From assembly GCA_009746045.1 (NCBI GenBank), contig RPFO01000406.1, forward strand, positions 3,072,872 through 3,136,871: a DNA stretch of 64,000 nucleotides, written 5' to 3'. Below are positions 23,231 through 47,952 of this stretch, piece after piece (the first letter of the stretch is position 1; each line of letters starts with the position of its first letter). The stretch comes from Mesostigma viride (lineage: Eukaryota; Streptophyta; Mesostigmatophyceae; Mesostigmatales; Mesostigmataceae). Below the pieces are notes generated by a model. It was given only the letters and a program-made list of their open reading frames with translations, did not search any database and had not been told where the DNA came from. Position numbers and translations under genes: made by a program.

Positions 23231-23260
23231 CTACAAAAACCTAAAGTGACCCCCTTTTGG
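23231..23260 (+). repeat. Left terminal inverted repeat of the 24.7 kb element
   Basis: CTAC, eight bases, then AAAGTGACCC; partner at 47923-47952. The inverted ends are imperfect but aligned without gaps for at least 22 positions. The DNA up to 23464 has no gene. Confidence 0.75.
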
Positions 23261-23464
23261 AGGGCTGACAGGCATGCACAATAACATGGCATTCCTCGTG
23301 GTAAAGCATGGAAATAAACACATGTAATGATATTTATTAATGAAACAATTCTTTATTCCAGATTATATTGCATGAATGGACTCTGTCACGTGTATTGGTG
23401 CTGCCACCACCAAGAAAAAGCCAGCATGGCTGTGCTGGTGCTGCCACACTACCATCATAGCTGT

Positions 23465-24388
23465 CTAGTGTGCATCTCCCTCGTCATTATCCTCCTCCTC
23501 CTCATCATCATCATCATCACCATCATTGTGCCCATCCTTGGCATCCACGTCCTTAGGATCATCGTCCTTGGGATCATCGTCCAACGGGATTGCATTGTCC
23601 TCGTTGACACCCTCAATGGCTCGCTTCACAGAGGCCTGCCACGCCTCCTTCTCGGCACGGAGTGCTTCCAGCTCGGCCATGATCTCTCGCTGCTTCCTCT
23701 CGCTAGCCTTGAGCTTCATGCCGATGGCCATCGCAGCCCGCTGGGGATCCTCAAACATCTGGCCGTCGCCTGCGCTCTTGGGGTTCTCCCCGCCGAGCTT
23801 GCTTGGAATGGTTGTAGGGGTGCGCTCGCGCGAAACCTGCTCGGTCTTTGTGCGCTTGTAGGCAGGCTCGCTCCCCCCCTCCGCCTGCCCCGCCTTCTCC
23901 TGCATTACAGCCATCCATGCCGTTCTGATAGCAACGTGGTTCGTGCCAAACTTCTTAGCAAACTGGGCGGACTGCGTTCCAGTGAAGGTGTTGCAGAAAT
24001 TGATGATCATCTCGTTGCATCCAGGCTCAAAATTTGAGATGGGCAGCCAGTCAAAACGCTGGAGCGATTTGCCCTGGCGGTTGGCCTTCTGCCTCTCCTC
24101 GTCTGTGTAAAACCACTCCACAAGGAGCTCAACAACATTGTCGACCATCTTTGCATCTATTATTTTGGACACGTCAAAGTGGTCGTACGAGTCATTCTTC
24201 GCATCTTCAGCAGGCGCCCTGCTGCCTGAAGCACGTTTCTTGTCACGATTGTCCGCCCTCACACCCCTCTCTGCAACGTTCATTTCCTTTTCTTTTGTTC
24301 TAACATCCTCGTCCAGGCGCTTGCCTACGAAGGTGGAAATCGTCTCGTAAGACGCCCTATTTATCAGCTGTGCGAGGTTGTCCTTCAT
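23465..24388 (-). CDS. Unknown 307-aa protein with acidic tail
   Basis: The protein has a basic, charged N-terminal third and a middle region (about residues 85-160) containing L-V-E-W-F-Y and W-M-A-V. A coiled-coil helix rich in Glu/Ala/Lys follows (about 230-265), and the C-terminus consists almost wholly of Asp and Glu. The middle region resembles the 188-aa protein at 7346-7912 outside the element. Acidic tails of this kind occur in chromatin-binding and activator proteins, but I do not recognise the family. It is the first gene inside the left end, transcribed towards it. An AT-rich TATA-like stretch (TTTAATAATAA) lies about 50 bp upstream. Confidence 0.72.
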   Translation of the reverse strand: MKDNLAQLINRASYETISTFVGKRLDEDVRTKEKEMNVAERGVRADNRDKKRASGSRAPAEDAKNDSYDHFDVSKIIDAKMVDNVVELLVEWFYTDEERQKANRQGKSLQRFDWLPISNFEPGCNEMIINFCNTFTGTQSAQFAKKFGTNHVAIRTAWMAVMQEKAGQAEGGSEPAYKRTKTEQVSRERTPTTIPSKLGGENPKSAGDGQMFEDPQRAAMAIGMKLKASERKQREIMAELEALRAEKEAWQASVKRAIEGVNEDNAIPLDDDPKDDDPKDVDAKDGHNDGDDDDDEEEEDNDEGDAH

Positions 24389-25048
24389 CTTTGCCTGTCG
24401 ACGGCTATGGAGTTTAATTCATCCCACCCATTATTATTAAATTCCTTTGCATTGCGGCTAGGGGCCGAGCATGCATTGTGCAAGGGCCAATTGGCCCAGT
24501 GCCTAGCGCCGCTCCGTGGGTACTTTGACAGTAATTAGCATTGGTCAAGTGCGCGTACTTTGTCAGTAATTAAATTTGCACAAGTCCCGAGCACCGTGTC
24601 ATACGCCCTTACTTCTGTCGTACGCAGTACCGGCGCGGCGTTAGGCGTGTTTCTGTGCAAAGTCCCGAATTTTCACCAAGTCCTGGGCACTAAGGGGGCC
24701 GTGCTAGTAAGTGTAGCTCCTAAACGGCTAAGTCTTTTTGAATTCTGTCACTTGCACCCTGTTTGGTATGCTCAGTATATGCTACGTACCTATTGCATTT
24801 GTTAATTGGCCTATTTATAATGCATGAGATGTGAGGACTCTTTGTTTACGTAAACGCTTTTATTAGAAAATAAAATACAGTAATCATTTCAACACTCCTT
24901 TTCTCAATGTAGGAGTGGAAGTACTTATGCGTACATCGCATGCGCCTTCTTCCGTTTAGTGATGCCCAAAAAAATGCAGCACTCCCTGCAGCTGACAAAG
25001 CTGTTGGCCAGTTGGCTCCTCCACTCGTCGAACACGCTCTCACACAGG
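24389..25048. other. Gene-free interval
   Basis: Between two minus-strand genes. It holds the promoter side of the 23465 gene, two loose copies of TACTTTG-[AT]-CAGTAATTA near 24510 and 24560, and an AT-rich stretch that would serve as the 3' end of the next gene. No supported coding region. Confidence 0.5.
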
Positions 25049-25639
25049 TTATCCATCTTCTCCATCCGGGGGGGGCGGTGGTGAGGAGCCACGCTTGTCT
25101 CGAGGGCCTTGCGCACCGCCTCCTTCATGCATGAGCTCGAGCCCGTGCTCTTCTGCCGTGCGTTCCTTCTCGAGATCCGGCACGGACTTGATGTACTCGT
25201 GAGCGACAAGGTCAGCGTCGTGTCCGAAGATGATGACAGCCCAGAACATCTTGTCAAACACATTCTGGGCAAGGCACGCCAGATGCTTCCTGTAGCAGTA
25301 GGCCGAGTCGATCCACCTCCTCGCTTGACGGAGATAGATATAGGGCTTGTTGCCACTCAGCAACCGCTTGCACATCTTGAGATCGCTTCCAGTCATGTGG
25401 CGCAGCTCGCCAGCGCTCCTTCGGCGTCTGCGGGAGCGCGTCTGAATCTCCTTCTCAATGGCCTTCAGCAGCTCAGTGGCTTCGATCTTCTTTTCCTCTT
25501 TCACCTTCTCAAACTGGACCTGCGTGGCCTTGTTGATTCCACACAGTTTGGGCCACGAGAGCTCCACGAGGCGGTGCACGATTTCCGCAGGCAGGCTTTC
25601 GAAGGTGGCAGCCATAGCTGTTTTTGTGGAGTCAGCCAT
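25049..25639 (-). CDS. F-box-like protein, 196 aa
   Basis: The N-terminal motif L-P-A-E-I-V-H-R-L-V-E-x-S-W-P resembles the start of an F-box, the Skp1-binding module of SCF ubiquitin ligases. A basic R-rich helix and a Pro/Gly-rich tail follow. The protein is a diverged paralogue of the 37320-37964 product: both begin M-x-A-T-[FY]-E-x-L-P and share W-P-x-x-C-x-I-N-K-A-T-Q. Two ATGs are possible, at 25639 and 25615, within a tandemly repeated 24-bp segment. I chose 25639 because the TATTAA box near 25706-25711 then lies 70 bp upstream, like other promoters here; the paralogue aligns from 25615. CCGTGG sites lie further upstream (25734, 25851, 25884). Confidence 0.66.
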   Translation of the reverse strand: MADSTKTAMAATFESLPAEIVHRLVELSWPKLCGINKATQVQFEKVKEEKKIEATELLKAIEKEIQTRSRRRRRSAGELRHMTGSDLKMCKRLLSGNKPYIYLRQARRWIDSAYCYRKHLACLAQNVFDKMFWAVIIFGHDADLVAHEYIKSVPDLEKERTAEEHGLELMHEGGGAQGPRDKRGSSPPPPPDGEDG

Positions 25640-26122
25640 AGCTGTTTTCGTGGTAGTGGTGGATGGAGAGGAGGATAGCTGCGAGAGTTGTTGCGTCTCG
25701 CGACTTAATAGACGAAGGGATATCCACATCTGCCACGGGATTGGTCCGCGTCCTGTGGATAAGCGCGGCGCGAGCGCGACGCGCGCGTCCTGTGGATAAG
25801 CGCGGCGCGAATACGGAACGGCGCGGCGCGAGTACGGACCGGTGCACGTCCACGGGATTCTGCCACGTGGCACGTGCCATTCCCCGTGGTGACGGCGCCA
25901 GAAGTATAAATATAAAACCGCGCCAAATTTAAATTTTTGCCAAGTCTCAACGGCTAAGTATTATTAAATTTGGACACTTGGGACGTGTGCAATTGTTAAT
26001 TTTACTTTGATTGCAAGCATGGAAAATAAGACATGATGTTCGTGTGAATTGTTTTCGTTAAAAATATAATTACTCTTTAATTGTACACAAGTCCACGGGA
26101 CTAGAGAGATTCTCTGAACTAT

Positions 26123-27400
26123 TTACAGGGCACGCGGGGCGGCCAGTTGGTTCATGACAGCTGCATAGCAGGACTCCGCGGAGTCGTAGCGGAAAAACGG
26201 GAAGCACAGGTCGTGCTTGGAGTCCTTGCCCTCGCAGATGGGGCAGGAGACACTCTTGGTGCCAGCCTCCCGCAGAGTGTCGAGGACGCACTCGCTGCAG
26301 ACGACGTCGTTGTCGATGCTGTGGCCGTTGGCGGTGAAGAGGTAGTGCGCCTTCTTGTTGCACACCTTGCAGGTCTTGGAGGGCACGTCCAACTGGTGGT
26401 TGCAGCCCATCTGCTTGCTGGCAGCCTTGACGCCGCAGAACTTGTTCTTCAGATGCTCGAACTCCTTGGTGCCGGGAGTGACGGTGCTGGTGAGGTTGGA
26501 CTCGGACAGCGTGAAAGAGACGAAGCTGAGGTGGGAGACATAGTTGCGCTTCTCGCACTCCCACTTGATCCTGGAGATCTCCTTGGTGAAGTCGCTCTTG
26601 AAGTTCTCGATGTCGACCTTGGGTTTCTTGATGGCGTCGACTTTCTCGTCGTTGAACAGCCCGCAAGACCTCAGGTAGTCGTTTGTGTCCTCCTGCTTCC
26701 TCTTGTAGCCACCGCGAAGAAAGGGCTGGTCGCGCTCCTCGACCTTGACGTTGACCTTGCCAGGGTCGGTGGGGCCGGTGAGAGCGAAGTTCGGCTCAGA
26801 GACGGTGTAGGTGCCTGGCGTGGGCCACTTGATGAACTCGGCGGTGTCCTCCATATCCGGGTAGATCTTGAGCAGCTCGGGGAACCTCTTCTTCGTCCGC
26901 TCGTGCTCGAATGCGAACTGCTCGAATGCGGGGTCCCAGCAGCTGATGCAGTGCTCGGCCTTGCCGTTGCAGTCGATCTTGAGGAGATCCACACGAGTTG
27001 GCTTCTTGCACTTGGCGCAGTCCTTCGTGGGGATGCTCTTCAGCATGTTGTTCTGCTGAAGGTACTCGCACGAGTCGCAGAAATGGCCGTCGCACGGGGA
27101 AAAGCTGTGATTGTTGCGCATCTTGTAATCCTCGTCAAACTCGCAGAAGTGCTTGAGAGACCTCATCTTGTCGCAGCCGACGCAGCGAATGCGCTTCTTG
27201 TTCATCATGATGTTGCTCGTCTCGTAGTGATCCATCATGTCGTTCACAACGCCGCGAGAAGCCTCAGGAAGGTGGACTTCGCATGCATGCTCGCCGGTGA
27301 CTGGGTGGAAAAGAATGTTGAAGTGGCGAGGCTTCTTGACTTTGGGAGCATTGTGCGGCCCACGCTGGCGAGGAGCAGAGATGGCGGAGGAGGTAGCCAT
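26123..27400 (-). CDS. RING-type zinc-finger protein, 425 aa
   Basis: The N-terminal region has several C-x2-C pairs (C-V-G-C, C-D-S-C, C-A-K-C, C-I-S-C, about residues 72-170) in a zinc-binding array. The C-terminus (about 344-390) is RING-like: C-K-V-C, H near 360, C-S-E-C, C-P-I-C. RING domains recruit E2 enzymes, so an E3 ubiquitin ligase role is likely by family. The ATG at 27400 follows a TATA box (TTTATAC on the plus strand near 27480) by about 80 bp. Gene and promoter face the 28110 gene across a shared array of CCCCGTGG sites. A full-length antisense open frame (26147-27514) is a codon shadow. Confidence 0.8.
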   Translation of the reverse strand: MATSSAISAPRQRGPHNAPKVKKPRHFNILFHPVTGEHACEVHLPEASRGVVNDMMDHYETSNIMMNKKRIRCVGCDKMRSLKHFCEFDEDYKMRNNHSFSPCDGHFCDSCEYLQQNNMLKSIPTKDCAKCKKPTRVDLLKIDCNGKAEHCISCWDPAFEQFAFEHERTKKRFPELLKIYPDMEDTAEFIKWPTPGTYTVSEPNFALTGPTDPGKVNVKVEERDQPFLRGGYKRKQEDTNDYLRSCGLFNDEKVDAIKKPKVDIENFKSDFTKEISRIKWECEKRNYVSHLSFVSFTLSESNLTSTVTPGTKEFEHLKNKFCGVKAASKQMGCNHQLDVPSKTCKVCNKKAHYLFTANGHSIDNDVVCSECVLDTLREAGTKSVSCPICEGKDSKHDLCFPFFRYDSAESCYAAVMNQLAAPRAL

Positions 27401-28109
27401 TGGAGCTGGTTGGTTTTGGTTGCTGAGAGAGCTGGGTGGATGCGAGTGGGATGCGAGGCGAGGTGGTGCAAGTCCTGCATTTATACCCACGGGGCTGCAA
27501 TTCCCGTGGTCTAGAAGAATTCAGCAGATCGACGGCTCGTGGCTCGCCACGAGGTTTGTAACGGGAAACGGTATGACGGTTACGAGAAAAAAATTCCCGT
27601 GGCCATACATTTCGAGCGTTATTTTGCCACGGGATTTGTAACGTAAAAAATCTATCCCCGTGGCAAAAATATCCGACAGTTACTTTGCCGCGGGACTGGA
27701 ATCGGATTTTTTTCTGTCCCCGTGGACGGATATTTTCGAGCGTTGTTTTGCCACGGGATTTGTAACGTAAAAATTCTTTCCCCGTGGCATAAATATCCGA
27801 CAGTTACTTTGCCACGGGGCTCGAATCGGATTTTTTTCTGTCCCCGTGGACGGATATTTCTGACCGTTACGCTGCCACGGGACTTGTAACGTAAAAAAAC
27901 GCGTCCCGTGGATAAGGTTTCGGCGCATAAACGACGAACGCGCTTCCACGTAGCCAGATTGCCCGTGCAAAGACCACGTAGATAGCCTGCCAGCCACGGG
28001 ACTGTCTCGTCAACCAAGGCCTGCGCAGGTATAAAGACCAGACTTCCTCGTCTCCTCGCCACTCGCTCACCTCACATCAGCTCAGCACACAAAAACTCTC
28101 TCACTGGAT
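27401..28109. promoter_or_regulatory. Divergent promoter with phased CCCCGTGG/CCACGGGA array
   Basis: TATA boxes near 27480 (minus gene) and 28031 (plus gene) each lie about 80 bp from their start codons. Between them are eleven 8-bp sites, alternating CCCCGTGG-like and its reverse complement, at 27595, 27627, 27656, 27688, 27718, 27751, 27780, 27812, 27842, 27875 and 27904. The mean spacing is 31 bp. The segment is also a tandem repeat of about 124 bp. Further sites lie near 27487, 27502 and 27993. The regular spacing suggests that a protein binds one face of the helix. Confidence 0.78.
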
Positions 28110-29293
28110 ATGGCTTCCCGCCCCAGATACGCAGCTAGCTACAACTTTGGCCGTGGTGTTACTGGAGCTAGTGGCAGTGGCAGTGGAAGTGGCAGGGGAA
28201 AGCGACGTGCCGCGAGGAACACGGCTACTGGAGAAGCAGGTTTGTGACAAGCCTTTGTTTTTTTGCACCCAAAAGCGCTTTTTCTTGTCGTTTCCGCCTT
28301 TGGTACTCATTTCTTGTTATGTTTTCTTGCCCCCACACACCCGTGCATGCAGAACTGACCGCTGAACAACGGCAGCTCCACAGGGCTAACAAGCCTGTGC
28401 CCGTGCACGATAATCACGGGGACTTCGACACAAGAAACAACGTGTTTCCCTATCTGGAGAACACTTTCAAGGTGGCGAAGCTCGTCCTGGACTTGAGCAA
28501 GATCGAATGCGCCATTTGCGCGGAGGAGAGAGACAAGTATGTCACTCTCATGCTGGAGAACGAGCCCGCGCACGCATGCTCCATCATCATCTGCGACACC
28601 TGTGCCACTACCAAGCTTCACACGTTCAGAAACCAGTGCCCGCAGTGCCGCAAGCCGCTGAGCTCGTCTGGGCAGCTGTTCGTCCCCAACCCGCAGCTCA
28701 ACAGCCTGGCGTCGAGGACGCAGTACCGGGCCTGCGAACACCCCGGCTGCTTTACGATCATCCCAAGCAACATGATGGCGGCGCACGAGGAGGAGTGCGA
28801 GTACAACGTCTACACCTGTGGCAACACCGTCTCGTTCCGCCTGCTGGACAACGAGACGCTTTCTTCCAAGATGTGCTGCGGCTACGAGGGCAAGAAACGC
28901 GCTGTCGAGGAGCACATGGAGACTTGCCCGGAGGCTGAGTCTGCGAAGAAGCTTAGCGCCATGATGGGCGTGTTTGACAAGGTGGAGGCGCTCTCAGCTG
29001 CAATGGAGCGCGACAGCCCAGACGTCTTCAAGCGCATGGCTCAGTTGTTTGGGGTGACCACGGAGAAGGCCAGGCGCATCCTTGCCAGCCTGCCTGGAGC
29101 GAGTGGTGCCGGCCCTTCTTCCCAGCGTGCTCCTCGTCCAGGGGAAGCAGTGGACACAGCAATTCCCGTCGACGCCCCCACTGACCCAATCAGTGATCTC
29201 GTGGACGCCATAGACGCTGACGCTGCTGCACAGGGCGTCGACGACGAGGCTGCAGACCCCACCTGGACTCCGGCTGGCAACGAGGACGACTGA
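28110..29293 (+). CDS. RING and TRAF-type zinc-finger protein, two exons
   Basis: Exon 1 (28110-28239) encodes a Gly/Ser- and Arg-rich N-terminus. Without splicing the frame stops at once after 28239. A 113-bp intron with GT...AG ends (28240-28352) and a T-rich tract restores the frame to 29293, giving 356 residues. The RING is at about residues 96-145 (C-A-I-C, C-D-T-C, C-P-Q-C). It is followed by Cys/His fingers typical of TRAF/SINA proteins (C-E-H-P-G-C, H, C; C-C-G, H, C). By family this is a ubiquitin E3 ligase. The C-terminus is acidic and disordered. TATA near 28031. Confidence 0.78.
28240..28352 (+). other. Probable spliceosomal intron
   Basis: CAG/GTTTGTG at the 5' end, T-rich middle, GCATGCAG/AAC at the 3' end. 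Removing it joins GEA to ELTAEQ in frame and bypasses the TGA that otherwise ends the first exon. Confidence 0.72.
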
Positions 29294-29889
29294 AGAGTTA
29301 CAGATGACAGCATTGGATGTCAAAAACCCCTCTAGTTTAGAGACAAGGGCCATAGTTAGAAACCAGCCCATCCACGGGGGTTAGGTGACAGGCAGTAGAA
29401 GAAACACCCCACGCACTGGGGACTTGGACAGGAAAGATGTGGATGTTTGTAATAAAGATGTGGATGTTTGCAAAACCAGTTTGAAAAAATATCTAAGCTG
29501 CACATTAGTATAAGTATGGTAAGTTTCCAGCAGGCCACGTGGCAGCCACAAAGCCCGATCCCCGTGGTAGCCGGCGCAGTACGGATCCCGTAGGAATCCA
29601 CGAGATATTTCCGAGATATTTTTAGATATTTTAAGATATTTTGAAAATATCACAGGGACCCCGTGGACACCCAGGGGAATCGTAACCGAAATTCGGACTC
29701 GCGGCCGGCGATCGGAGGAGCCACCACGGGAAAATCCCGTTTTTTTTTCGGGTCTGTCCTCAGAACGTCCATGACGAGCGTCAAAGAGTCGAGAAATTGG
29801 GCGATTTCGTTCGTGACCCTCATTTTCGTGCGAGTTGTGAGGTGTTTCGCTTATTCTTGTTTTCTGCTTCTCTTTTATACTAATCTCTC
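29294..29889. other. Boundary of outer and inner modules, short repeats
   Basis: It contains a 22-bp tandem pair (GATGTGGATGTTTG units near 29435-29480), five AGATATTT-like units at 29606-29650 and the last CCGTGG sites of the left outer module (29372, 29560, 29663). A 40-codon frame with a hydrophobic C-terminus (29771-29893) overlaps the next ATG as ATGA. It could be a small membrane protein, but support is weak. Confidence 0.45.
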
Positions 29890-30288
29890 ATGAGCAAAGT
29901 CGAGCCCAAAACCGTCAAGGATAAGCCGGACGTTACAATCTTATCCGCGTGTTTCGGCTCTGCCTTGAAGATCGCTGATATTTTCGTATTCCCACTTATC
30001 TTTGCCGTTTTTACAAATTTCTGGATTCGAGCGATCGCATCCGACGACCAGGAAAAAGATGTAACCGAAATTCTGCAGGCCCAAATCCCCGTTTTTGCGT
30101 CAATGGCACTCAGCGCGGTGATTTTTTTCCCCGGATTTTATCGACTAGGCTTCTTCAAAGGCCTTCTCGCGTTTATGATCGTCAGTTACATTCGTCTCAA
30201 TGTCGCATCCGCATACGCGATCGTCCTCTCGCGTCTCCTCGACGAACCAAGGGATCCGGATAAGAACGAAACCGATCCTCCTCAGTAA
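29890..30288 (+). CDS. Small multi-pass membrane protein, 132 aa
   Basis: Hydrophilic N-terminus (about 18 residues), then a hydrophobic segment at about 25-50 and two more at about 70-85 and 90-115, and a charged C-terminus rich in Asp/Glu/Pro. First gene of the inner module; a TTTATAC sequence lies 12 bp upstream of the ATG. It is followed by two more short genes on the same strand (30374, 30613), with the last two only 2 bp apart, a compact arrangement like that in large DNA viruses. No family recognised. Confidence 0.66.
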   Translation: MSKVEPKTVKDKPDVTILSACFGSALKIADIFVFPLIFAVFTNFWIRAIASDDQEKDVTEILQAQIPVFASMALSAVIFFPGFYRLGFFKGLLAFMIVSYIRLNVASAYAIVLSRLLDEPRDPDKNETDPPQ

Positions 30289-30373
30289 GATTGCGATTCT
30301 CTGGTTCGCTTGTTTCCGAAGCCGCTCCGTACATTCTATTTTGGAAGAATCTCGAAATTGATTCTTAACAGTC

Positions 30374-30610
30374 ATGTCTTTGATAGAAAGATTGCGTTCT
30401 TATCGGATCGCGGGATCCGCCGCTTTTGATTGGGCGGCGACGTTGCTAGCTTCGGTCGTCATCGCCTATTTAGCCGATGGGAGACGATTTCGAGTCCCAA
30501 TCCACGCTCTCTCGTTCGTGTGCTTGGTCGCCTTGGGGCAATTCTTGCATTTCGTTCTCGACCAACACACGCCATTCCTAAAGAAGTTGCAGTCTCTTTT
30601 CGTCGCGTGA
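30374..30610 (+). CDS. Small membrane protein, 78 aa
   Basis: Two hydrophobic segments (about 18-32 and 42-60) separated by a short basic loop, followed by F-V-L-D-Q-H-T-P-F. The pattern F-D-W-[AL]-A-T-L-L-x-x-x-x-I-A-Y, then a second helix and H-[FY]-x-F/L-x-x-x-T-P-F, reminds me of a short membrane protein found in several nucleocytoplasmic large DNA viruses. That is from memory and unverified. Its stop is 2 bp before the next ATG. Confidence 0.62.
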   Translation: MSLIERLRSYRIAGSAAFDWAATLLASVVIAYLADGRRFRVPIHALSFVCLVALGQFLHFVLDQHTPFLKKLQSLFVA

Positions 30611-30612
30611 AG

Positions 30613-30897
30613 ATGCCAAAAGTTTCATCGTCTTCCTCTTTAAAACGCAAATCCATCGAAGAGGCGATCGAAACGCCTTCGGAAGACGGGGCCTTCAACA
30701 AACCAACGACGCCTGAAGCATTCGACGACCTATGGAAAATGCTTCAAGACGCTGTCGAAAGGAAGATCAAAGACGACTTCCGCTACATCGCGATTCGACG
30801 CGAACTCAATTACCTCTTACACGTGAACACAAGAATGACGGACGAGGAAAAACAGCTCAAGAAAAAGAAGCTCGTGGAGGAGCGAGAAAACCTTTGA
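30613..30897 (+). CDS. Unknown charged protein, 94 aa
   Basis: A basic, Ser-rich N-terminus (P-K-V-S-S-S-S-S-L-K-R-K), then an amphipathic helical region ending in a Lys/Glu-rich coil. It starts 2 bp after the preceding stop, so the pair is transcribed or at least arranged together. No family recognised. The interval to 31122 holds two imperfect copies of a 37-bp unit (GCCGAGACT...CTTGA). Confidence 0.62.
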   Translation: MPKVSSSSSLKRKSIEEAIETPSEDGAFNKPTTPEAFDDLWKMLQDAVERKIKDDFRYIAIRRELNYLLHVNTRMTDEEKQLKKKKLVEERENL

Positions 30898-31122
30898 GCA
30901 AAAGCGAAGGAGGCAAACCGACTCATTGAGTGCATGCGTAACGTTCTGAGCTGCATGCGTAAGGCGATGCGCTGAAATCCGCGATGAAAGGCTTGAAAGC
31001 CGAGACTGTCTTGAATTAACGGCTTAAATGCCGAGACTCTCTTGAGTTTAAGACGCTGTAACACCTATTAACGATTTAATAATAAAACTTTATTTTGTCT
31101 TTGCTTAATCATGTAAGTTTTC

Positions 31123-31896: not shown

Positions 31897-32006
31897 TCAC
31901 AATTGCACTTTTCATCATAACAGTTTAATGCCTTTTAACCATCCTTTATTTTTATATTAATTTCGCGAGGAGTGCATCTACCTCTGCATTCGATTATTAA
32001 AACAAT

Positions 32007-37964: not shown

Positions 37965-38150
37965 TGTCGAGAACCGGTGCCTTTGTGACGCTCGCGACCC
38001 TATTTTTATACGTTTGGTTTCTCGAAATCGGTTACAGACCTAGTTGTCGTTACAAACCGGATGATGTCACGAGGCAGATATTTTCCTCCTTGACATCATC
38101 CGCGTTTGTACATATACCGCTTGAGAGAATCAACCTCGCCTCCTTCCAAA

Positions 38151-38333: not shown

Positions 38334-38484
38334 TACAGCGTGTGAAAAAAGCACGAAATGTAACAGAAACGACTTTGCAGCGTTTCTAAAGCCGATTCGG
38401 CATGGATGATGATGGCATGTGCCAAATTATTAATAAACGCAACTTTCATCCACACTATCACTTTTAACTGTACTTTAATTAAAT

Positions 38485-38808
38485 ATGCCTCGCTGTGTTA
38501 GGAAAACGAAAGATGGCAGACAATGTCTCCTAACCGCTGCTCGCGGCTGCAAATCCTGCGCTACTCATCTGGCTTGTTCCGCGAGAAGGAGGAACACGCA
38601 TCGAGCTAAGGCGCCATCGCTCGAAGATGGCCCGCCTCTCGCCCCGGGCGTGTGGGACTTAGTTCCGACCGACATCGCTCGCAAAATCGCGAAACAGGCG
38701 GGACAGCCAATGATCGACCCGCGCGTGATGCAGGCAGGAATGAAGGGGTTGCTAAAATTAAAGCAGCAAGAGGTGAAAGAGCCCTTAAGAAAGTTATCTG
38801 AAAATTGA
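38485..38808 (+). CDS. Cys/His-cluster protein, 107 aa
   Basis: N-terminal C-V-R-K-T-K-D-G-R-Q-C, nine residues, C-A-T-H, the sixth member of the Cys/His family in this module. The middle has V-W-D-L-V-P-T-D-I-A-R-K-I-A, reminiscent of a degenerate F-box core, and the end is basic and helical. An AT-rich TTAATTAAAT precedes the ATG directly. Unknown role. Confidence 0.68.
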   Translation: MPRCVRKTKDGRQCLLTAARGCKSCATHLACSARRRNTHRAKAPSLEDGPPLAPGVWDLVPTDIARKIAKQAGQPMIDPRVMQAGMKGLLKLKQQEVKEPLRKLSEN

Positions 38809-38838
38809 AGAAAGACAATTAATTTTTCGCCCGAATCA

Positions 38839-40224: not shown

Positions 40225-40601
40225 CCCCTTCCGCCCCCCTCGGGCCCCTCCAGCCCCCCCAGGGTCCCCCCAGGTCCCCCTGCGGTGTACCGGCTCTGGG
40301 TCGTCCCGTGGCCCCGCTGGTCGGCCCGTGGTATCGTAACGGCTGGCAGTCGGCGCGTAACCGCCGTTTAGTCCGTCCGTAACCGCGGCCCGGCACGGGA
40401 AGTAACGGTTTCCGGAGGAGACGTGGCGCGTCTCGCGCCCGAAGAAGTGTCCACGGACACGTAACGGAACCTAACCGCCGACCGCGTAATTTTTTCACGC
40501 GGCGAGGCGAGCACCGCGCGGGTATAAAACCCCGCCGCCCTCCTCGTCGCACGCACTCTCGCTCTCTCTCTCACGCTCTCGAACCCTTTCCATTTCCTGC
40601 C
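40225..40601. promoter_or_regulatory. Promoter region of the 40602 gene, module boundary
   Basis: GC-rich interval where CCCGTGG sites resume (near 40305, 40325) with several GTAAC(C/G) units. A TATAAAAC at 40523 lies 79 bp before the ATG, followed by a CTCTCTCT initiator-like tract. Confidence 0.65.
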
Positions 40602-41336
40602 ATGGCGACTGCGGCCTGCCGCGATTGCGGCCTGCGTTTCCCGAAGGACAGCGCCGAGTTCCTCCCCAAGCGCGGTTGCAAGCGCACGAGTCGCTGTTCC
40701 AAGTGCCGCTCCAAACGCCTCGCCAACGCAAAGCGCAACAAGGCCGAGAAGCAGAGGATGGAGGAGGAGCTATGGCAGCGGATGAAGCAGGAAATGGGGC
40801 TCTTCGAAACGCCCCGTGACGAGAACTTCCCGGCCCCCAAGAAGGTGTGCGTTCCCTCCCGCCGCCGCCGCGATTTCAAGCCTCCGCACGACGGGATGGG
40901 CGCCAGAGTCAAGGATCTGCCCAGACTCTCCATGCGGTGCTCCGATTTCTCTCGCGGCAACCCGCTTGCCGCCTGGGTGGTGACTCGCGACGAGATTTTG
41001 GGCCGCGAAAACGCCGCTCGCGAGCTGGAGAATGCCCGTTTGGCCCGGATGGACAGGGAAAATCGCGAGGCCCCCGTTTCTGTCGACCAAGTCGAGCAGG
41101 AGGAGGAGGAGGAGCAGGCTCCTTCCGATCACGAGATGAGCGATTTCGAAGGCTCCGTCCCCTCGTACTCTTACACCTCCTCCGAGGAGGAGGAAGAGGT
41201 GGGGAGCAAGTCCCCCCGCCAGGATCTGGACGTGGATGACACGTTCTTCGGCTGCAACTTTGACGATCTGGACTTGGATGCCACCTTCGATCCGTGCAAG
41301 AGCCTGCACGACATGGCCGCCTCTGTCAAACTGTGA
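40602..41336 (+). CDS. Zinc-ribbon protein with acidic C-terminus, 244 aa
   Basis: C6-x2-C9 and C32-x2-C35 form a likely zinc ribbon (a Cys at 26 lies between), followed by a basic helix (K-R-L-A-N-A-K-R-N-K-A-E-K-Q). The second half is acidic with runs of Glu and Ser/Glu. The last 50 residues alternate Asp with Leu/Phe (F-D-D-L-D-L-D), like an activation domain. A transcription activator is a reasonable guess. TATA box 79 bp upstream, with CCCGTGG sites beyond. Confidence 0.7.
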   Translation: MATAACRDCGLRFPKDSAEFLPKRGCKRTSRCSKCRSKRLANAKRNKAEKQRMEEELWQRMKQEMGLFETPRDENFPAPKKVCVPSRRRRDFKPPHDGMGARVKDLPRLSMRCSDFSRGNPLAAWVVTRDEILGRENAARELENARLARMDRENREAPVSVDQVEQEEEEEQAPSDHEMSDFEGSVPSYSYTSSEEEEEVGSKSPRQDLDVDDTFFGCNFDDLDLDATFDPCKSLHDMAASVKL

Positions 41337-41465
41337 AAACTGTGGGGAATAGGACTCTGTCAGCCCCTCTCTCCTATTTATTAAACTCGTAATCCTATTT
41401 TTAATGCAAACTCGACTTGTGTCTCAAACATGCGTGCCCACAATGAGTCTCCTCTAATTCTGGCA

Positions 41466-42690
41466 TAGGGGGTGGAGATAGTGGAGATAGTGGAGATGCA
41501 TCTCCATACCCCCCCCTCCCTTCTCCCAAAACTTTTCTGGCAGGAAATACTCATGCAAATTCCAATATTGTCCCGTGGAATCCTAACTGTCCAATTATAA
41601 GTATTTTACGCGATGGTGACGAGTGACAGCATAAGAGGGTGCGCGGGGCGGTGGAGATAGTGGAGATAGTGGAGATTCATCTCCATCCCCCCCCCTCCTC
41701 TCGAAAAACTTTCCCGGGCGGTGACGGAGTGGAGATAGTGGAGATAGAGGTGGAGATAGGTACCTCCACGACTTTGACCTTTGTTTTTTGAAAAGGAGAA
41801 GGCTTTTGAAGGAAACGGATAGCGGGATGCGATCAGGCGACTCTCTGGCTTTCCGTGCCCGCCCCTCTCTCGACCCAGTTCCCACCGGGTGAAGAGAATT
41901 CTCGGCATTCGACAGAGTGGAGATAGTGGAGATAGTGGAGATTCATCTCCATACCCCCCCCCTCCCTTGAAAAACTTTTTCCTGGACCAGAGTTCTCGCG
42001 TCTGCCGCCAAGCACTGTCTCTCTGCTGCCCATAAAATTTTGTATATTTACGACTATTTCTCTCTGCTGCCCATAAAATTTTGTATATTTACGACTATTT
42101 CTCTCTGCTGCCCATAAAATTTTGTATATATTCCACGGGAAGTATAAAAGTTTCTCTCTGCTGCCCATAAAATTTTGTATATTTACAACTATTTCTCTCT
42201 GCTGCCCATAAAATTTTATGTATATTCATAGCATTTCCCGGCACCTGCCAGCGCAGAGACTGCATTCCGTTCCAGCCAAAAAAAGTTTTTCGAAGGAAGG
42301 GGGGGGTATGGAGATGCATCTCCACTATCTCCACTATCTCCACTCCGTGGAACCCCGAGGACTGGCTCTCGAGCACCGAGAAACTTGTCATGAAACCCGG
42401 TTTATCAGAATCCTAGAGACTCCCCCGATCCGATCCCGCTGTCCCTTTCCTCCAAAATCCTTCTCCTTTTCGAAACACAAAGGTCAAAGTCGTGGAGGTA
42501 CCTATCTCCACCTCCATCTCCACTATCTCCACCCCGTGCCGGCGTCTGTCACGGTCGCGTAAAATACTTGGAATTGGACAGTTAGGATTCCACGGGACAA
42601 TATTGGAATTTGCGTGAGTATTTCCTGCCAGAAAAGTTTTGGGAGAAGGGAGGGGGGGGTATGGAGATGAATCTCCACTATCTCCATCTC
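41466..42690. repeat. Long imperfect inverted repeat with central 41-bp tandem repeats
   Basis: Left arm 41466-41990 and right arm 42276-42690 are inverted, degenerate copies of each other. The match runs from (GGAGATAGT)n and CCTCCC(T) blocks through a segment containing TTTGACCTTTGT to the TCCAATTATAAG segment. At the centre (42018-42240) the sequence TCTCTCTGCTGCCC followed by ATAAAATTTT recurs five times at 42018, 42059, 42100, 42153 and 42194. The first three are in register at 41 bp. No gene is supported in 41337-42979. Candidates: replication origin, nested hairpin transposons, or hairpin RNA source. Confidence 0.75.
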
Positions 42691-42979
42691 CACTCCACAC
42701 TGCCGCGGGCCTCGTCGCGCTTCTTGCATCTGTCACCTGCCGGACTATGCTCGCATCTGTCACTCCCGTGGACTATGCTCGCATCTGTCACTCCCGTGGA
42801 CTATGCTTGCGTCTGTCACCTGCCTAGGCTGTTTAGGACTTGTGTTTTTTCGCGAAAGTTTGGGTGACTCATTGTTGAGATTGGGCTCATTGTTGGACTT
42901 GTGTTTTTTCATTAAAAAATAAAGGATAGATTACACCCCGTCACGGGGCTAGACTAAGTGTGTACGAGGACATCCTAAT

Positions 42980-44410
42980 TTACACAACCCTGGCCACCTT
43001 GGCGCGAGAACGGGTCACCATCTTCTCCATCTCCCCGCGCTTCCGCGAGGAGCTGCGCAGGATCATCTGTGTGATCTGCACGACCGGCGCCGCCTGCTCC
43101 ACAGCCCGCACCACTGGCGCCTGCTCCTCCTGGCGCCACATGCAGAAGGCGGACGGAATGCCCTCTGCCTTCCTCCTCTCCTCCTGCAACATCTTCTCCT
43201 CGCGCTCCTTCTTCTCCTTCTGCCTCCTCTCCTCCTGCAGCTCCCTCTCCTCCTGCTCAAACAGCCTCGACAGCATCATGGTCTTGTGCATCAAGCGCTC
43301 GGCACGCATTTCTGCGACATCCTCCTCATCCATATATGTTTTCTTCTCGAAGTCCCCCAGCTCCTCCGAGAGTTCCTCCTGCAACCGCGCGTGGTAGACC
43401 GGAAAGTCGTACATGACCCTCTGCTCCAGAGGGATCGCAGCGCGCTCCTTCTTGATATCCGCCAGCACCGGGGTCAGGCACCAAGCGGGCAAGGCCCTGA
43501 ACCCCCTGTAGACCCAATCGGGGACGCGCTCGGAGGCCTTCTCCATCCTCTCGGATTCCTCCGGGTCCCGGCAGGGATTCCGCATGTGCACCTTGAACCG
43601 GATATCCCTCAGCCTGCGAACGACTTCCTCCATGTTCTTGATCGCCGGCTTGATGCTCTCGCTGGTGTCGAGCTGCTCCTCCGAAGGCGCGGACATGTTG
43701 AATTCCATCCTGGACTTGGTAAGCATCCAGATGGGGTTGGAGTGCATCCTCGGGTTGTGGTTCAGGAAGAACTTCAAAGCGGAAGGCCTGCCCCCGTCGC
43801 AGTCGATGGAGTACCTCGACGGAGTGTTCCTGAACTCCATCTTGGCGTCTTCCGCCTCCCTCATCTCGAGCCAGATGCGCCTCTCGTCGAAAAAGTCCTT
43901 CCTGCGCACCAGCTCCTTGATGTCCAGCTTCTGGCCCAGCTTCTCGGCGTCCTTCTCGCTCCTAAAGTGCATAAAGCCGTTCCAACAGATCTCCTTGGTG
44001 GTGTCGCAGAGGAGTTCGATCGTCTTCTCCCTCTGCATGTGCGCCTTCTCCACCAGCTCGTCGTTGAGGCTGAGCTCGATCTTGTCGTTCCAGTTCTTGG
44101 CGTCGCATGACCACGTAATGAAGGTACCCCGCGGAGTGGGCGTGGTGCGGATTTTGGGCGGCTCGTTGTAGAGCTGCACGGACTTCTGGAAAACGCTGCG
44201 AGCCTTCTTCAAGCCGTGAAGGGAGGTGCGATGGCGCTTGAACTTGTCGGTGGAAGGCCTCCCGCTGTACTCGTAGAGGAGAAAAGGGATAGGCTTCTTG
44301 AAATTGCCGAAATGCGCCTCGCCTCTGGCCAGAAAAACTTCGCGCTTGAGGAAGATATCCCGCTCGCACAGGAGGATGGCGAGATCCGAGGGGCCTTGGT
44401 ATTCCGCCAT
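42980..44410 (-). CDS. Unknown 476-aa protein
   Basis: The largest unexplained protein of the outer modules. N-terminal part of mixed composition with L-A-I-L-L-C-E-R-D and L-L-Y-E-Y-S-G-R-P. A middle with many Trp and Arg (about 130-300). C-terminal third a long Glu/Arg coiled coil (E-E-R-R-Q-K-E-K-K-E-R-E-E) and a basic end. No D-D-E, tyrosine-recombinase or H-U-H motif is evident, so I cannot call it a transposase, though its size would allow one. Transcribed from the divergent CCGTGG promoter, TATA near 44492-44500, about 82 bp before the ATG at 44410. A frame open upstream of that ATG passes through the promoter and is rejected. Confidence 0.7.
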   Translation of the reverse strand: MAEYQGPSDLAILLCERDIFLKREVFLARGEAHFGNFKKPIPFLLYEYSGRPSTDKFKRHRTSLHGLKKARSVFQKSVQLYNEPPKIRTTPTPRGTFITWSCDAKNWNDKIELSLNDELVEKAHMQREKTIELLCDTTKEICWNGFMHFRSEKDAEKLGQKLDIKELVRRKDFFDERRIWLEMREAEDAKMEFRNTPSRYSIDCDGGRPSALKFFLNHNPRMHSNPIWMLTKSRMEFNMSAPSEEQLDTSESIKPAIKNMEEVVRRLRDIRFKVHMRNPCRDPEESERMEKASERVPDWVYRGFRALPAWCLTPVLADIKKERAAIPLEQRVMYDFPVYHARLQEELSEELGDFEKKTYMDEEDVAEMRAERLMHKTMMLSRLFEQEERELQEERRQKEKKEREEKMLQEERRKAEGIPSAFCMWRQEEQAPVVRAVEQAAPVVQITQMILRSSSRKRGEMEKMVTRSRAKVARVV

Positions 44411-45130
44411 AGCTGCGAAAGTGTGAGAGGAGAGTGTTGGGTGCGTTGAGCGAGTGGGATGCGAGTGGCGAGACGAGGTGGGGAGGCGGCTTTTATACCT
44501 TGCTGCCACTTCTTGACGAGATCTCCCGTGGTCGAGTGCTGAAGTCCGCATATCGCTTCGTGGCGAGCCACGAGCCGCTAGATAGGCGCGTGCAACCGTA
44601 ACCGTCGTCGTAACCGCGTAAAAGTGTCCCCGTGGACACTGGCGACCACGGGATTTTTTTCTTCTAGAAGCGTAACCGTAACTATCTTGTCCCCGTGGAC
44701 CGTGGAAGGCCACGGGATTTTTTCCGCGGCGGCGTAACCGTAACTATCCGATTCCGTAACCGCGCAAAAGTTTCCCCGTGGACAAAGTAACCGCCGGATA
44801 TTTTTCCCCGTGGCTGCGTGGCCGCGAAAACCCTGTCCCCGTGGACAACGTAACCGCCAGATATTTTTCCCCGTGGTTCCGTAACCGCAAAAACCCTGTC
44901 CGCGTGGACAAAGTAACCGCCGAAAGGTTCTCCCGTGGCAGCGTGGCCGCGAAAACAAATATCCCCGTGGTGGACCGCGGCCCGGTAACGGCCGAAAAGT
45001 GGCTACGTGGCTAATTCAGCACTTTGTAACCGCCCGGCGGCCTGGAAGGTATAAAACCCGGTGCACGACCACGGGGCTCTCACCTCGCTCTCACTAGCAC
45101 CTGATCTCTAACTCTCTCTCTCTCTCAGCT
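44411..45130. promoter_or_regulatory. Divergent promoter with CCCCGTGG sites every 31-32 bp
   Basis: TATA boxes at about 44495 (minus gene) and 45049 (plus gene) each lie about 82 bp from the start codons. Seven CCCCGTGG-like sites in one orientation start at 44774, 44806, 44837, 44869, 44900, 44931 and 44963, spacings 32, 31, 32, 31, 31, 32. Two more at 44628 and 44691 are 63 bp apart, each paired with an inverted CCACGGGA (44646, 44710). Most half-units also contain GTAACCGC or GTGGCCGC, making a 63-bp dimeric repeat. Average spacing 31.5 bp equals three turns of B-DNA. Confidence 0.82.
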
Positions 45131-46012
45131 ATGGCCAACCAGATCGTTTATACAGTGTACCAAGTCCCAGATCTTTACGAACTCCGTGAGAAAACGGATC
45201 CATTTGGTGACTTCTCCGAGTTCAGGGTCTTGTGCGTGGGGGAGTTCGCTGAGGTGGGTCAACTGGTGGCTCAAACCGCGCAAACGGGGATGAGGGCCAT
45301 GACCAAGGTGACAGATCACGTTATGAATCAATTTGCAAAAATGGGGGGCTTTCCAGACTCTTTGGAAATGCTTTTTGCCCACTGCGCGCTCGTTTCCCCG
45401 ACTCAGCTCAAGAACGGCCGTTCTGTGCCCTCTCATGAGTGGACCATGCTGCCCAGGAAAAAAAATGAAGAGCCCGTTCTTCAGAAGACAAGGCCTTTCG
45501 CCTCTGAAGCGTTTTGGCATCATGAATCGGATCCGAATGGCAACCCGATTCCGCTCCAAGTCAACTTCCCCGTATCCGCTAAGCAGCCTCATCCGATTCT
45601 CAAGGTGGGCATCATCTGGGCTCCGGCCTACTCCGTGAAGGATTGGTCTGTGATGTTCAACGTTACCCAGGCGGATATGGTTCCCTCCGCCCCCGGCGCC
45701 CCGAAGACGCGCTTGGAGAAAGTTCATGCCAAGTTTCACCTCCCCATGCCCGGTTCATGGACGCCTATCACCACGTACCTGACTTCCGCTAGCCAGCTCG
45801 AGGAAACCCCTGCAAAAATCAAGGAAATTCAACTCAAGACTCAGGCGGCTCGGGTGGAGATGGAGGATGCTGAGAAACGTGCCTGGCAGGAGCAGTGCCA
45901 GAGGATCCGGGAAGACCACATTGCTAGGATGCAGGCCGAGATGAAAAAGGCTAATCCTTCCACTGAAATTGTCGTTGCTGGAAAGCAAGTGGATGTATCT
46001 CTGGTTCAGTAA
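45131..46012 (+). CDS. Unknown 293-aa protein
   Basis: First 200 residues of globular composition with W-x-M-L-P-R, F-W-H-H-E-S-D-P-N-G-N-P-I-P and G-I-I-W-A-P-A-Y-S-V. The last 80 residues form a charged helix (A-R-V-E-M-E-D-A-E-K-R) ending in a short polar tail. The beta-rich middle could be a small jelly-roll or a nucleic-acid-binding fold; I see no diagnostic motif. Divergently paired with the 42980 gene. TATAAAAC 82 bp upstream and an initiator-like CTCTCT run before the ATG. Confidence 0.7.
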   Translation: MANQIVYTVYQVPDLYELREKTDPFGDFSEFRVLCVGEFAEVGQLVAQTAQTGMRAMTKVTDHVMNQFAKMGGFPDSLEMLFAHCALVSPTQLKNGRSVPSHEWTMLPRKKNEEPVLQKTRPFASEAFWHHESDPNGNPIPLQVNFPVSAKQPHPILKVGIIWAPAYSVKDWSVMFNVTQADMVPSAPGAPKTRLEKVHAKFHLPMPGSWTPITTYLTSASQLEETPAKIKEIQLKTQAARVEMEDAEKRAWQEQCQRIREDHIARMQAEMKKANPSTEIVVAGKQVDVSLVQ

Positions 46013-46396
46013 ATGATCCTTGTGTATTATTTTTATTAATGAAAAACCATTTTCACACAAACTTGAATACCAACAATGAGTCAAACACAATTGCATGCCA
46101 AGTGGCAAATTACTTCAAGTAGTATTTCCGGACGGGTCCGTACACTATCCGTAAATCGTAACTGAAACCCTGTGGATAAGCCCGTACGGCGTCGCGTCGT
46201 TTGTAACCGAATTCCCGTGGATAAGGCCGTACAGCGCCGCGCCGCTTGTAACCGAATTCCAGTGGATAAGTAACTGAAACTCTGTGTCCCCGTGGACAGC
46301 TGCTCCCGAGAGGTACAAAGACTCCAAGTTTGCGACTTGTTTCCCATCTCGCTCTCGTTTTCTCTCGCGCAATCCCTCTCGCACTCTCATCCATCC

Positions 46397-47374
46397 ATGG
46401 CTCCCGCTACCAGGTCCTCTGTTCGCCTCAACAACACCCCGCTGTTCCCTCTCTCCTTGGCAGCCATATCCAAGCGAAAGAAGCACGCCTGCAAGAAGCC
46501 TGTCCTCGTGGAGCACAGCGACGAGTCGAACCCCGTAAAGGACTCCGCTTTCGACTTGGTGAGGCCGCGTATCTGCGACACCTGTTTCCACATGCCGACG
46601 GACTTTTTCTACCTCTTCAAAAACGACCAAGGCTCCGTCGAGTGCAAGTGCGATGGCTGCGTCAAGGCCATCCCTCAAATCGCCGACTTCGTGCACAAGT
46701 ACTCGGATTCGCTCATGCGCTACCGAGTCCCTGAGCAAGATACGCCACCTCGCCGCTCCTATTCGTGCGTGGAGTGCATGTCGTACGTCACTGGAGCTGC
46801 CTTCGTCCACGATACGCCTGCAACGCAGCATATGCGCAACAAGACCACTCTGTGCGAGCCCTGCTACCAAAAGAAGGTCGTGATCGCACTTCGCAAGTTG
46901 AAGGTGGCCGAGAACGAAGTCAGAACAGAAAAGGAGAACGAGCTCGTGCAGAGTTTCGTGAGGGACTGGAAGATGGACACGCAGGCCGGGGAGCAAGGGA
47001 CTTCTCTCTACCTGCAGAACTCGAACGTGGCGAGCTGTTGGCCCCCGAAGGAGTGCTCCACCTGCACGGTGAGGTTCTTGCACGACGTCATGTCTGCCTA
47101 TATTGTCCCGGACCAGTTCTCGGACCAGATCCGCGTCCGCTGCCACAATTGCGCAAGGAACGCGCCCTTCAAGGCGAAGATCCTCTTGGAGGGGTACAGC
47201 CAAGACAACGGCTTGAAGAAGCTCCTGGAAAAACCCAAAGACCAGAGGGACGAGTTTGTCCCCTTGGGAGTCAACTTGCAGCCCATGAACAGAGCCGAGG
47301 AGAAGCAGTTCCTCCGCGGCGTGCTTGACCTTCTCGTGACTGAGGGCAAACCACTGCTTTTTGGGCGCAAGTGA
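46397..47374 (+). CDS. Cys-cluster protein, 325 aa
   Basis: Three pairs of C-x2-C motifs, C-D-T-C with C-K-C-D-G-C, C-V-E-C with C-E-P-C, and C-S-T-C with C-H-N-C, spread over about residues 55-265 and suggesting three zinc-binding units. The first (C-x2-C-x6-F-F/Y-L...C) resembles the N-terminus of the 40602 protein. The N-terminus is basic. CCCGTGG sites at about 46212 and 46286 and a TATA-like TACAAAG near 46313 precede the ATG at 46397 by about 84 bp. Likely nucleic-acid binding. Confidence 0.7.
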   Translation: MAPATRSSVRLNNTPLFPLSLAAISKRKKHACKKPVLVEHSDESNPVKDSAFDLVRPRICDTCFHMPTDFFYLFKNDQGSVECKCDGCVKAIPQIADFVHKYSDSLMRYRVPEQDTPPRRSYSCVECMSYVTGAAFVHDTPATQHMRNKTTLCEPCYQKKVVIALRKLKVAENEVRTEKENELVQSFVRDWKMDTQAGEQGTSLYLQNSNVASCWPPKECSTCTVRFLHDVMSAYIVPDQFSDQIRVRCHNCARNAPFKAKILLEGYSQDNGLKKLLEKPKDQRDEFVPLGVNLQPMNRAEEKQFLRGVLDLLVTEGKPLLFGRK

Positions 47375-47429
47375 TGCAGTATAGGAAACACGATTGAGTG
47401 ATATTATTTATTTTTATAATGAAAAGACC

Positions 47430-47618
47430 ATGATCATTGTGTCCATCATCAAAGCATTATTGCTGTACTATCTCATTTGCGTCAACCTCTCCTTAGCATG
47501 GGAACACTTGTACATGGAACACACGCGCAAATCGTTTGACAAATTCCCTTGGAATAAGCGTATTCTCCTAGTGCTGTTGTTCTCCCCCGTAGTCCCGTTC
47601 GGGTTACTCGGCTTTTAG
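47430..47618 (+). CDS. Small membrane protein, 62 aa (tandem copy 1)
   Basis: N-terminal hydrophobic helix M-I-I-V-S-I-I-K-A-L-L-L-Y-Y-L, then a short acidic/basic loop (E-H-T-R-K-S-F) and a second hydrophobic segment at the end. A tandem duplicate follows at 47662, and the duplicated unit includes about 12 bp upstream of the ATG. Could be a signal-anchored or two-pass membrane protein. Unknown function. Confidence 0.58.
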   Translation: MIIVSIIKALLLYYLICVNLSLAWEHLYMEHTRKSFDKFPWNKRILLVLLFSPVVPFGLLGF

Positions 47619-47661
47619 GCGCAACCCCGATTGACAAAATTATGTCCATTATGAAAAGACA

Positions 47662-47865
47662 ATGATCATTGTGTCCATCATCAAAGCATTATTGCTGTAC
47701 TATCTCGTATGCGTGAACATCGCCTTAGCACACGACCACTTGTACGCGGAACACACGCGCAAATCGTTTGAATTCGACACCTTATCACTGCGTCTTAAAC
47801 TAATGCTATTAATCCCCATCCTAATTCCGGGCATGGTCCTATTCGGAGGGCCTTGGAGGCGCTAA
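47662..47865 (+). CDS. Small membrane protein, 67 aa (tandem copy 2)
   Basis: Shares the first 36 residues with the preceding gene with few changes (L-I-C-V-N-L-S-L-A to L-V-C-V-N-I-A-L-A, W-E-H-L-Y to H-D-H-L-Y). The C-terminal half has diverged but keeps a second hydrophobic segment (L-I-P-I-L-I-P-G-M-V-L-F). Conservation of the reading frame in both copies, with most changes conservative, supports both being real genes. Confidence 0.58.
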   Translation: MIIVSIIKALLLYYLVCVNIALAHDHLYAEHTRKSFEFDTLSLRLKLMLLIPILIPGMVLFGGPWRR

Positions 47866-47922
47866 CCCCCCACCCGCTGGGAGACCACGGGACTTAGCCG
47901 ATTTTCACAAGTCGCGCAACCC

Positions 47923-47952
47923 GGGAAAACGGGTCACTTTCGCGGAGCGTAG
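47923..47952 (-). repeat. Right terminal inverted repeat of the 24.7 kb element
   Basis: Read on the minus strand from 47952: CTAC, eight bases, AAAGTGACCC, then a GTTTTCCC stretch. Partner of 23231-23260. TA at 47953-47954 is the target duplication. Confidence 0.75.

Follow-up and report, generated by a model that had tools for sequence, protein, structure and literature searches.

A 24.7 kb insertion in a gypsy element of Mesostigma viride is probably a cut-down giant-virus-like provirus with one break at a palindrome centre

Introduction

Contig RPFO01000406.1 of the streptophyte alga Mesostigma viride (assembly GCA_009746045.1, positions 3,072,872 to 3,136,871) carries two closely similar gypsy retrotransposon copies, one of which is split by a 24.7 kb insertion with inverted ends. 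We analysed the 64,000-nucleotide stretch that holds both copies (hereafter the window; positions given without a contig name refer to it). A preliminary description had taken the insertion for a complete mobile element with giant-virus-like genes, and the question raised by this locus is whether the insertion is indeed complete or is derived from something larger. We report that insertions with the same ends elsewhere in the genome reach 230 kb, that their outer part forms a long palindrome, and that the window insertion breaks off at the centre of this palindrome. Rather than a transposon of a new kind, the insertion is probably a provirus that has been cut down. As to its origin, we lean slightly towards a reading in which the predicted hairpin end of a giant-virus-like provirus was opened and joined to a broken internal point, and the product was circularised and reinserted.

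Results

The insertion and its relatives share ends and 2-bp target duplications

The insertion is exactly bounded, with TA on each side (CAACTCTA on the left, TATGAATC on the right), and the empty site, GCAACTCTATGAATC, is present near position 63963 in the other gypsy copy. Its two ends, L and R, are inverted and follow the pattern CTAC N8 AAAGTGACCC. The gypsy copies are 99.4% identical over 6362 bp, and the insertion is therefore young. On both points, a discrete insert at these borders and a recent event, the preliminary description holds.

Further copies were searched for in the genome assembly (439.9 Mb, 2243 contigs), so that all locus counts below are counts in the assembly. An L-end probe of 201 bp gave at least 40 scored matches from 63 candidates, four of them partial, and an R-end probe of 200 bp gave at least 40 from 61, the window being included in both. 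The further copies have the same CTAC N8 AAAGTGACCC ends, and the claim of common termini withstood this check for copies that end differently. Some L and R ends adjoin unrelated flanks, and others face each other as R-GTAG, 49 bp, CTAC-L. Such R-spacer-L junctions lie at 13 loci by coordinates, nine of which were read, and the 49-bp spacer is conserved. Some contigs duplicate one locus: C2210, C730 and C1668 have a common L-end flank. C446 and C874 likewise have a common L-end flank (GGTCGCG) and carry copies that are 99.4% identical and whose outer 1.6 kb has diverged (83% identity to the window); they are a duplicate locus and a second subtype of the outer unit A described below.

L ends were paired with R ends only, a pair being one L and one R end on the same contig that both face outward into non-spacer flanks; many ends have no partner among the matches listed. 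In all 11 pairs the 2 bp next to the ends are common to both flanks, and at 3 bp this holds for none of them. Shuffled pairing gave a mean of 3.7 matches in 11, and the exact chance of 11 in 11 is 1.8e-5 (permutation). The right flank of the C1956 insertion was obtained after the left flank was known, and it matched (TA/TA). Duplications of 5-6 bp, as in Polintons, are matched only at C1668 and C1073, where the insertions sit in simple repeats. The duplicated dinucleotide is TA at six loci (window, C1657, C1413, C1535, C335, C1956) and GA (C1106), GT (C2067), AA (C2100), TG (C1073) or CA (C1668) at the other five; these six different dinucleotides leave no fixed core of the kind seen in phaeovirus-type integration. 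The smaller paired insertions measure 12.4 (C1956), 14.5 (C2100), 15.8 (C1073), 24.7 (window) and 39.4 kb (C1106), and the larger ones 65.0 (C1413), 72.3 (C335), 103.7 (C2067), 156.2 (C1657), 211.8 (C1535) and 229.6 kb (C1668). C1413 was counted once and has two candidate L ends (1568753 and 1584463) that lie 15.7 kb apart in near-identical flanks; host flank and element end may have been duplicated in tandem here.

The TA duplication and inverted ends of the window copy are what a complete new TA-specific terminal-inverted-repeat (TIR) transposon would show. The TA duplication recorded by the preliminary description is real in the window and is not general, and the Tc1/mariner-like insertion that it suggested fails on the five loci with other dinucleotides and on the absence of a DDE transposase from the 19 element open reading frames (ORFs) scanned. 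We rejected Tc1/mariner and other TA transposons on these grounds. A complete TIR transposon is also hard to reconcile with larger copies that have the same ends and with an internal join that, as described below, is peculiar to the window copy, and we regard it as scarcely credible.

Larger copies carry a 13 kb palindrome

Alignment with larger copies divides the insertion into two units, A and B (Table 1). In six copies (C2021, C1535, C2067, C730, C2191, C874), A is followed at window-equivalent 29768 by its own reverse complement, A', without a gap; for C874 the palindrome shows the inner part of A only. The whole is a gapless 13 kb palindrome that turns at ...CTCAGAACGTTCTGAG..., with AACGTT at its centre. 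After A' the larger copies run through the conserved 49-bp spacer to the R end and then into B, which runs inward to the point matching window 29766; there C2021 and C1535 go on into common other sequence. The collinearity of B in C2021 rests on both ends and the length, its middle (16001-28000) lying outside the comparison. The spacer and R end stand on one side of seven palindromes, as read or by coordinates (C2021, C1535, C2067, C1657, C257, C1502, C1912), and the other palindromes, C1413, C1414, C2096 and C2102 among them, have no spacer or R neighbour among the matches listed. We also considered whether A might be an independent transposon with inverted ends of 13 kb; the spacer and R end beside seven palindromes and the mismatched flanks of an L/L' pair on C1912 leave this idea unsupported. 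Within one L/R-bounded insertion, C1657:681774-837949, the L'-spacer'-R' junction occurs twice, both times in one orientation, which would fit integration of a concatemer or a circle.

The two arms within a copy are nearly identical, at 99.94% in C2021, 99.73% in C1535 and 99.97% in C2067 (0, 6 and 0 mismatches, respectively), and A of other copies is 95.8-97.7% identical to that of the window. For A of C2067, identity to the other copies compared does not exceed 98.8%, which is below that between its own arms. The arms of C2067 are more alike than copies are; they have therefore been kept similar, and copying round a hairpin would have that effect.

Adapters missed in long reads can create false inverted repeats, so the palindromes and joins could be assembly artefacts. 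The published M. viride assembly used PacBio reads (PMC6947507, available in part), and some contigs do duplicate one locus, as noted for C2210, C730 and C1668. Sixteen palindromes, however, turn at the same base by coordinates, and the copies are bounded by 2-bp duplications, which makes an artefact very improbable.

Eight copies are joined at the palindrome centre

A 200-bp probe across the join between A and B in the window gave 56 matches from the 40 of 58 candidates scored: one spanning match, in the window, 18 that cover the B side only and 37 that cover the A side only. Of these 37, 32 are the arms of the 16 palindromes and five are single arms. Breaks that stop further from the centre than about 100 bp escape this probe. 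Read from the centre, larger copies run A', spacer, R', B'; the window copy has the centre end of A joined to the inner end of B and has L and R as its outer ends, and it lacks the spacer. By this order, the window element holds the outer ~26 kb of the putative provirus in cyclically permuted form. The preliminary claim of a complete mobile element accordingly gives way, since the join occurs in the window copy alone among the scored candidates and two larger copies have the same ends and contain a capsid match (see below).

Counting the window, eight copies are joined at the centre (the others being C1106, C1073, C1956, C1527, C1912, C2100 and C1580). With shared bases allowed for, all eight joins fall about -1 to +6 nt from AAC^GTT, and the sequence beyond the centre differs in each. 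C1956 and the window are collinear between the R end (47954) and window-equivalent 42239, and the latter point is joined to the centre in C1956; in C2100 the centre is joined to window-equivalent 40573, and in C1580 to window-equivalent 37763 via 49 bp of filler from other sequence. In C1073 and C1527 the partner matches the interior of C1106, and in C1106 it lies elsewhere in that same interior; we call these three partners R-side sequence of a divergent copy type. In C1912 the centre is joined to unassigned sequence. Target duplications were seen at five of the eight loci (window, C1106, C2100, C1073, C1956). In V(D)J joining, off-centre opening of a hairpin leaves short palindromic extras, and by analogy the short palindromic extras at the joins described here may reflect off-centre opening of a hairpin.

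The same structures bear on the chief rival explanation, in which a full-length provirus was inserted in the gypsy copy and then lost its interior in place, with one break at an unstable palindrome centre. Larger copies hold A|A'-spacer-R' together with B, so that one deletion gives the structure of the window; the CGT (3 bp) common to both sides of the window join is typical of end joining; and the join is private to the window copy among the scored candidates. Against this, the breaks at eight loci all lie within a few bases of this centre, with the arm kept up to it, and the youth of the insertion leaves little time for two steps at the gypsy site. We consider deletion in place possible and on the unlikely side.

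Capsid matches lie in the two largest paired insertions

Matches to the nucleocytoplasmic large DNA virus (NCLDV) capsid family PF04451 were over the cut-off for all 150 of the 507 candidates scored, and there were none in 14 control genomes. Two of them, C1535:712070-712633 and C1668:858074-858637, lie by coordinates inside paired insertions, namely the two largest (212 and 230 kb). Because these insertions have the same ends as the window element and contain a capsid match, the missing capsid of the window fits a deletion derivative. With at least 150 capsid matches on many contigs, this algal genome carries far more giant-virus DNA than the present family accounts for, and the total load is very large.

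One of the 150 scored matches (824 candidates) to the tyrosine recombinase family PF00589 lies in a paired insertion, at C1668:854682, about 3 kb from the capsid match of the 230 kb insertion (C1668:854682-858637). Its score and span resemble those of a dispersed family, and it may nevertheless be a viral tyrosine recombinase. The strongest matches to PF00589 are bacterial-type (E to 1.2e-44) and lie on C2011, which suggests that C2011 is a bacterial contig; a 'Ca. Megaira' genome has been assembled from M. viride NIES-296 reads (PMC9098888, available in part).

The family might instead be a large, non-viral cellular mobile element, with DNA of a capsid-bearing giant virus inserted in some copies. 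Such an element would account for the capsid having been seen in two of the 11 paired insertions and for the 19 scanned element ORFs, among which there is no gene for a capsid, a polymerase or packaging. Sizes of up to 230 kb with common ends, the presence of KilA-N and Cys/His-cluster genes, and the position of the capsid inside the two largest insertions speak for a virus, and we hold the cellular element to be improbable.

Genes and repeats of the window copy

From 57 ORFs of at least 80 amino acids (aa) in the region, 19 element ORFs were scanned against Pfam with introns left out of account; a twentieth scanned protein was the gypsy gag. None of the 19 was recognised as a gene for a transposase, an integrase, a capsid, a polymerase or packaging. 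Among the genes named in the preliminary description, KilA-N and the tRNA are borne out, and the RING and F-box domains fall below their curated cut-offs (E 0.0076, 16.5 bits against 27, and E 0.099, 13.1 bits against 20.5, respectively). For the proposed SprT-like protein, the HEMVH motif is there in the 461-aa ORF, and the assignment goes no further: Pfam gave no match, and an AlphaFold model from two sequences had a mean predicted local distance difference test score (pLDDT) of 38.8, too poor to judge. Relatives of the KilA-N protein are the gene models P0002 and P0004-P0008 of Mesvir1, a jgi label that we take to mean Mesostigma viride (46-49% identity over 95-96%), and two more on short contigs (44-46%). 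The sole relative found for the 461-aa ORF is Mesvir1 gene model P0001 (58% over 36%), and viral contigs gave no relatives of either protein.

Tandem repeats with CCCCGTGG/CCACGGGG-like cores occur throughout the element (27610-27898, 44625-44956, 42726-42819 and others), and a core like these is also found in the 49-bp R/L spacer. Elsewhere in the window, 930-7012 contains several direct and inverted copies (97-99% identical) of a retroelement-like repeat unit with long open frames.

Table 1. Features of the insertion and its gypsy target in the window
Feature	Position	Strand	Evidence or remark
Gypsy copy 1 (target), interrupted, resumes at 47953	16874..23230	-	alignment with copy 2
Left copy of 2-bp target duplication (TA)	23229..23230	.	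flank comparison, empty site near 63963
L terminus, CTACAAAAACCTAAAGTGACCC	23231..23252	+	end comparison with other copies
Unit A, outermost 6.5 kb of provirus, L end to palindrome centre	23231..29768	+	larger-copy alignment
324-aa Cys-rich ORF, sub-threshold RING/Sina zinc finger	28319..29293	+	Pfam scan
AACGT, remnant of palindrome centre AACGTT (telomere-like axis)	29764..29768	+	CGT common with B side
A-B join	29768..29769	.	joined in window copy only, among scored candidates
Unit B, provirus sequence inward from R end	29769..47952	+	alignment; larger copies continue into other sequence (C)
KilA-N protein, 390 aa	32007..33179	-	PF04383, E 4.4e-11, above cut-off
468-aa ORF, short N-terminal Cys/His cluster	33424..34830	-	sequence; no Pfam match above cut-off
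tRNA-Ile (tat)	34903..34975	+	tRNA prediction
371-aa ORF, Cys/His cluster and sub-threshold F-box	35705..36820	-	sequence, Pfam scan
461-aa ORF with HEMVH, possible metalloprotease	38839..40224	+	motif; no Pfam match
244-aa ORF, weak PHROG endonuclease VII-like match	40602..41336	+	E 7e-4
523-aa ORF	42980..44551	-	no relative found, 7995 candidates scored
R terminus, inward reading CTACGCTCCGCGAAAGTGACCC	47931..47952	-	end comparison with other copies
Right copy of 2-bp target duplication (TA)	47953..47954	.	flank comparison
Gypsy copy 2, empty site	57607..63963	-	alignment with copy 1

Discussion

To account for the A/B permutation, the spacer junctions and the eight centre joins, we infer a hairpin telomere at the palindrome centre, small circles, an attachment site formed by R-spacer-L, and a DDE-type integrase. 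The viral DNA would be linear, closed at each end by a hairpin that corresponds to the palindrome centre, and its terminal repeats would each hold one attachment site; in a circular form, the viral ends would be joined as A|A'. Integration would proceed by cuts on both sides of one spacer, which would leave an L end and an R end, the arrangement of the 11 pairs; the spacer would be lost, and the 2-bp stagger of the cut would be most like that of a DDE enzyme. If the opened hairpin of a terminal fragment were joined to an internal break, a small circle with one attachment site would result, and its integration would yield an element of the window type with a 2-bp target duplication. The cutting would be done by a DDE-type integrase supplied by full-length copies; no DDE transposase or integrase was found in the 19 window ORFs scanned, and the large copies were not searched for a retroviral-like DDE integrase.

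Several results weigh against an origin from an opened hairpin. The arms of C2021 and C1535 are no more alike than the closest other copy (C2021 against C2191, 99.94%; C1535 against C730, 99.70%). These may be pairs of duplicate contigs, but arms more alike than copies have been shown for C2067 only, which lowers our confidence. The flanks of the L/L' pair on C1912 (3954651, 4007264), the one such pair tried, are AA and TA and do not match, and at C1527 the L end expected near 94,978 was not found, so that there is no pair. Capsid matches were seen in two of the 11 paired insertions, with 150 of 507 candidates scored, and those of C1535 and C1668 could be nested. For an A22-type resolvase, all 72 candidates in the genome were scored and 33 matches resulted, with none in the paired insertions and none in the 14 controls; the telomere resolvase PF16684 had no candidates in the genome; and no integrase of the element was identified among the 19 window ORFs and the genome tyrosine recombinase matches scored. 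Finally, the main rival, deletion in place at an unstable palindrome, would produce nearly identical structures.

Defective, internally deleted derivatives of DNA transposons and viruses keep both ends and lose the interior, their mobility presumably coming from full copies. The Mesostigma elements differ from ordinary deletion derivatives in their cyclically permuted order and in having, at the eight joins seen, one break at a shared palindrome centre.

Published systems resemble the family in part; the accounts cited here were available in part, and the comparisons are with those parts. The phaeovirus EVEc of Ectocarpus is an integrated algal giant virus with a circular form that carries an attachment site, and an internal 6-bp palindrome in its larger inverted repeat has been proposed as a telRL-like site of covalently closed telomeres (PMC13236599). 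Phaeoviruses have a fixed CC core (GC/CG in Feldmannia virus) and a probable tyrosine recombinase, and the telomere resolvase gene is conserved in EsV-1 and FsV-158 (PMC13236599). As in EVEc, a palindrome lies inside an inverted repeat at the predicted telomere site; the centre AACGTT is a candidate for a palindromic linearisation site of phaeovirus or N15 type. Phaeoviruses differ from the present family, in which the 2 bp at the flanks are variable, the genome yielded no telomere resolvase match, and the palindrome extends over 13 kb. The punuiviruses of Chlamydomonas end in large terminal inverted repeats, are flanked by target duplications and probably use a DDE integrase (PMC13236599, PMC12993054). 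The Mesostigma family is like them an integrated green-algal giant virus, by our reading, with terminal inverted repeats and target duplications: its copies have common inverted end motifs and 2-bp duplications in all 11 pairs, punuiviruses being compared here without regard to duplication length. The 49-bp spacer between the ends and the derivatives with a common centre join set it apart from punuiviruses as described. On the tests made, the family appears most like a punuivirus at the insertion ends and like a phaeovirus at the palindrome, and neither fits fully. Polinton-like viruses, inserted viral elements of about 20 kb, have inverted ends and 5-6 bp duplications (PMC12747079), whereas the duplication here is 2 bp and no capsid, polymerase or integrase was seen in the window copy. 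In the open-licence PMC literature, as far as it was available, we found no paper on endogenous giant viruses of Mesostigma or on such deletion derivatives.

We tentatively propose, with less than even confidence, that a lysogenic giant virus of a basal streptophyte alga alternates between linear forms with hairpin telomeres and circular forms, and that its telomere-proximal fragments circularise and integrate by themselves, even in retrotransposons, as giant-virus counterparts of non-autonomous transposons such as miniature inverted-repeat transposable elements (MITEs). If true, the family would be a further integrating system beside those of punuiviruses and phaeoviruses, as far as these are described in the sources cited, with a measured 2-bp duplication and a likely attachment site built on a 49-bp spacer. 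The terminal palindromes may record how the ends of the viral DNA are built, and the centre joins would make the hairpin telomeres of an uncultured virus testable from genome reads. The joins also suggest how fragments of a giant virus may multiply as repeats in a genome of the plant lineage.

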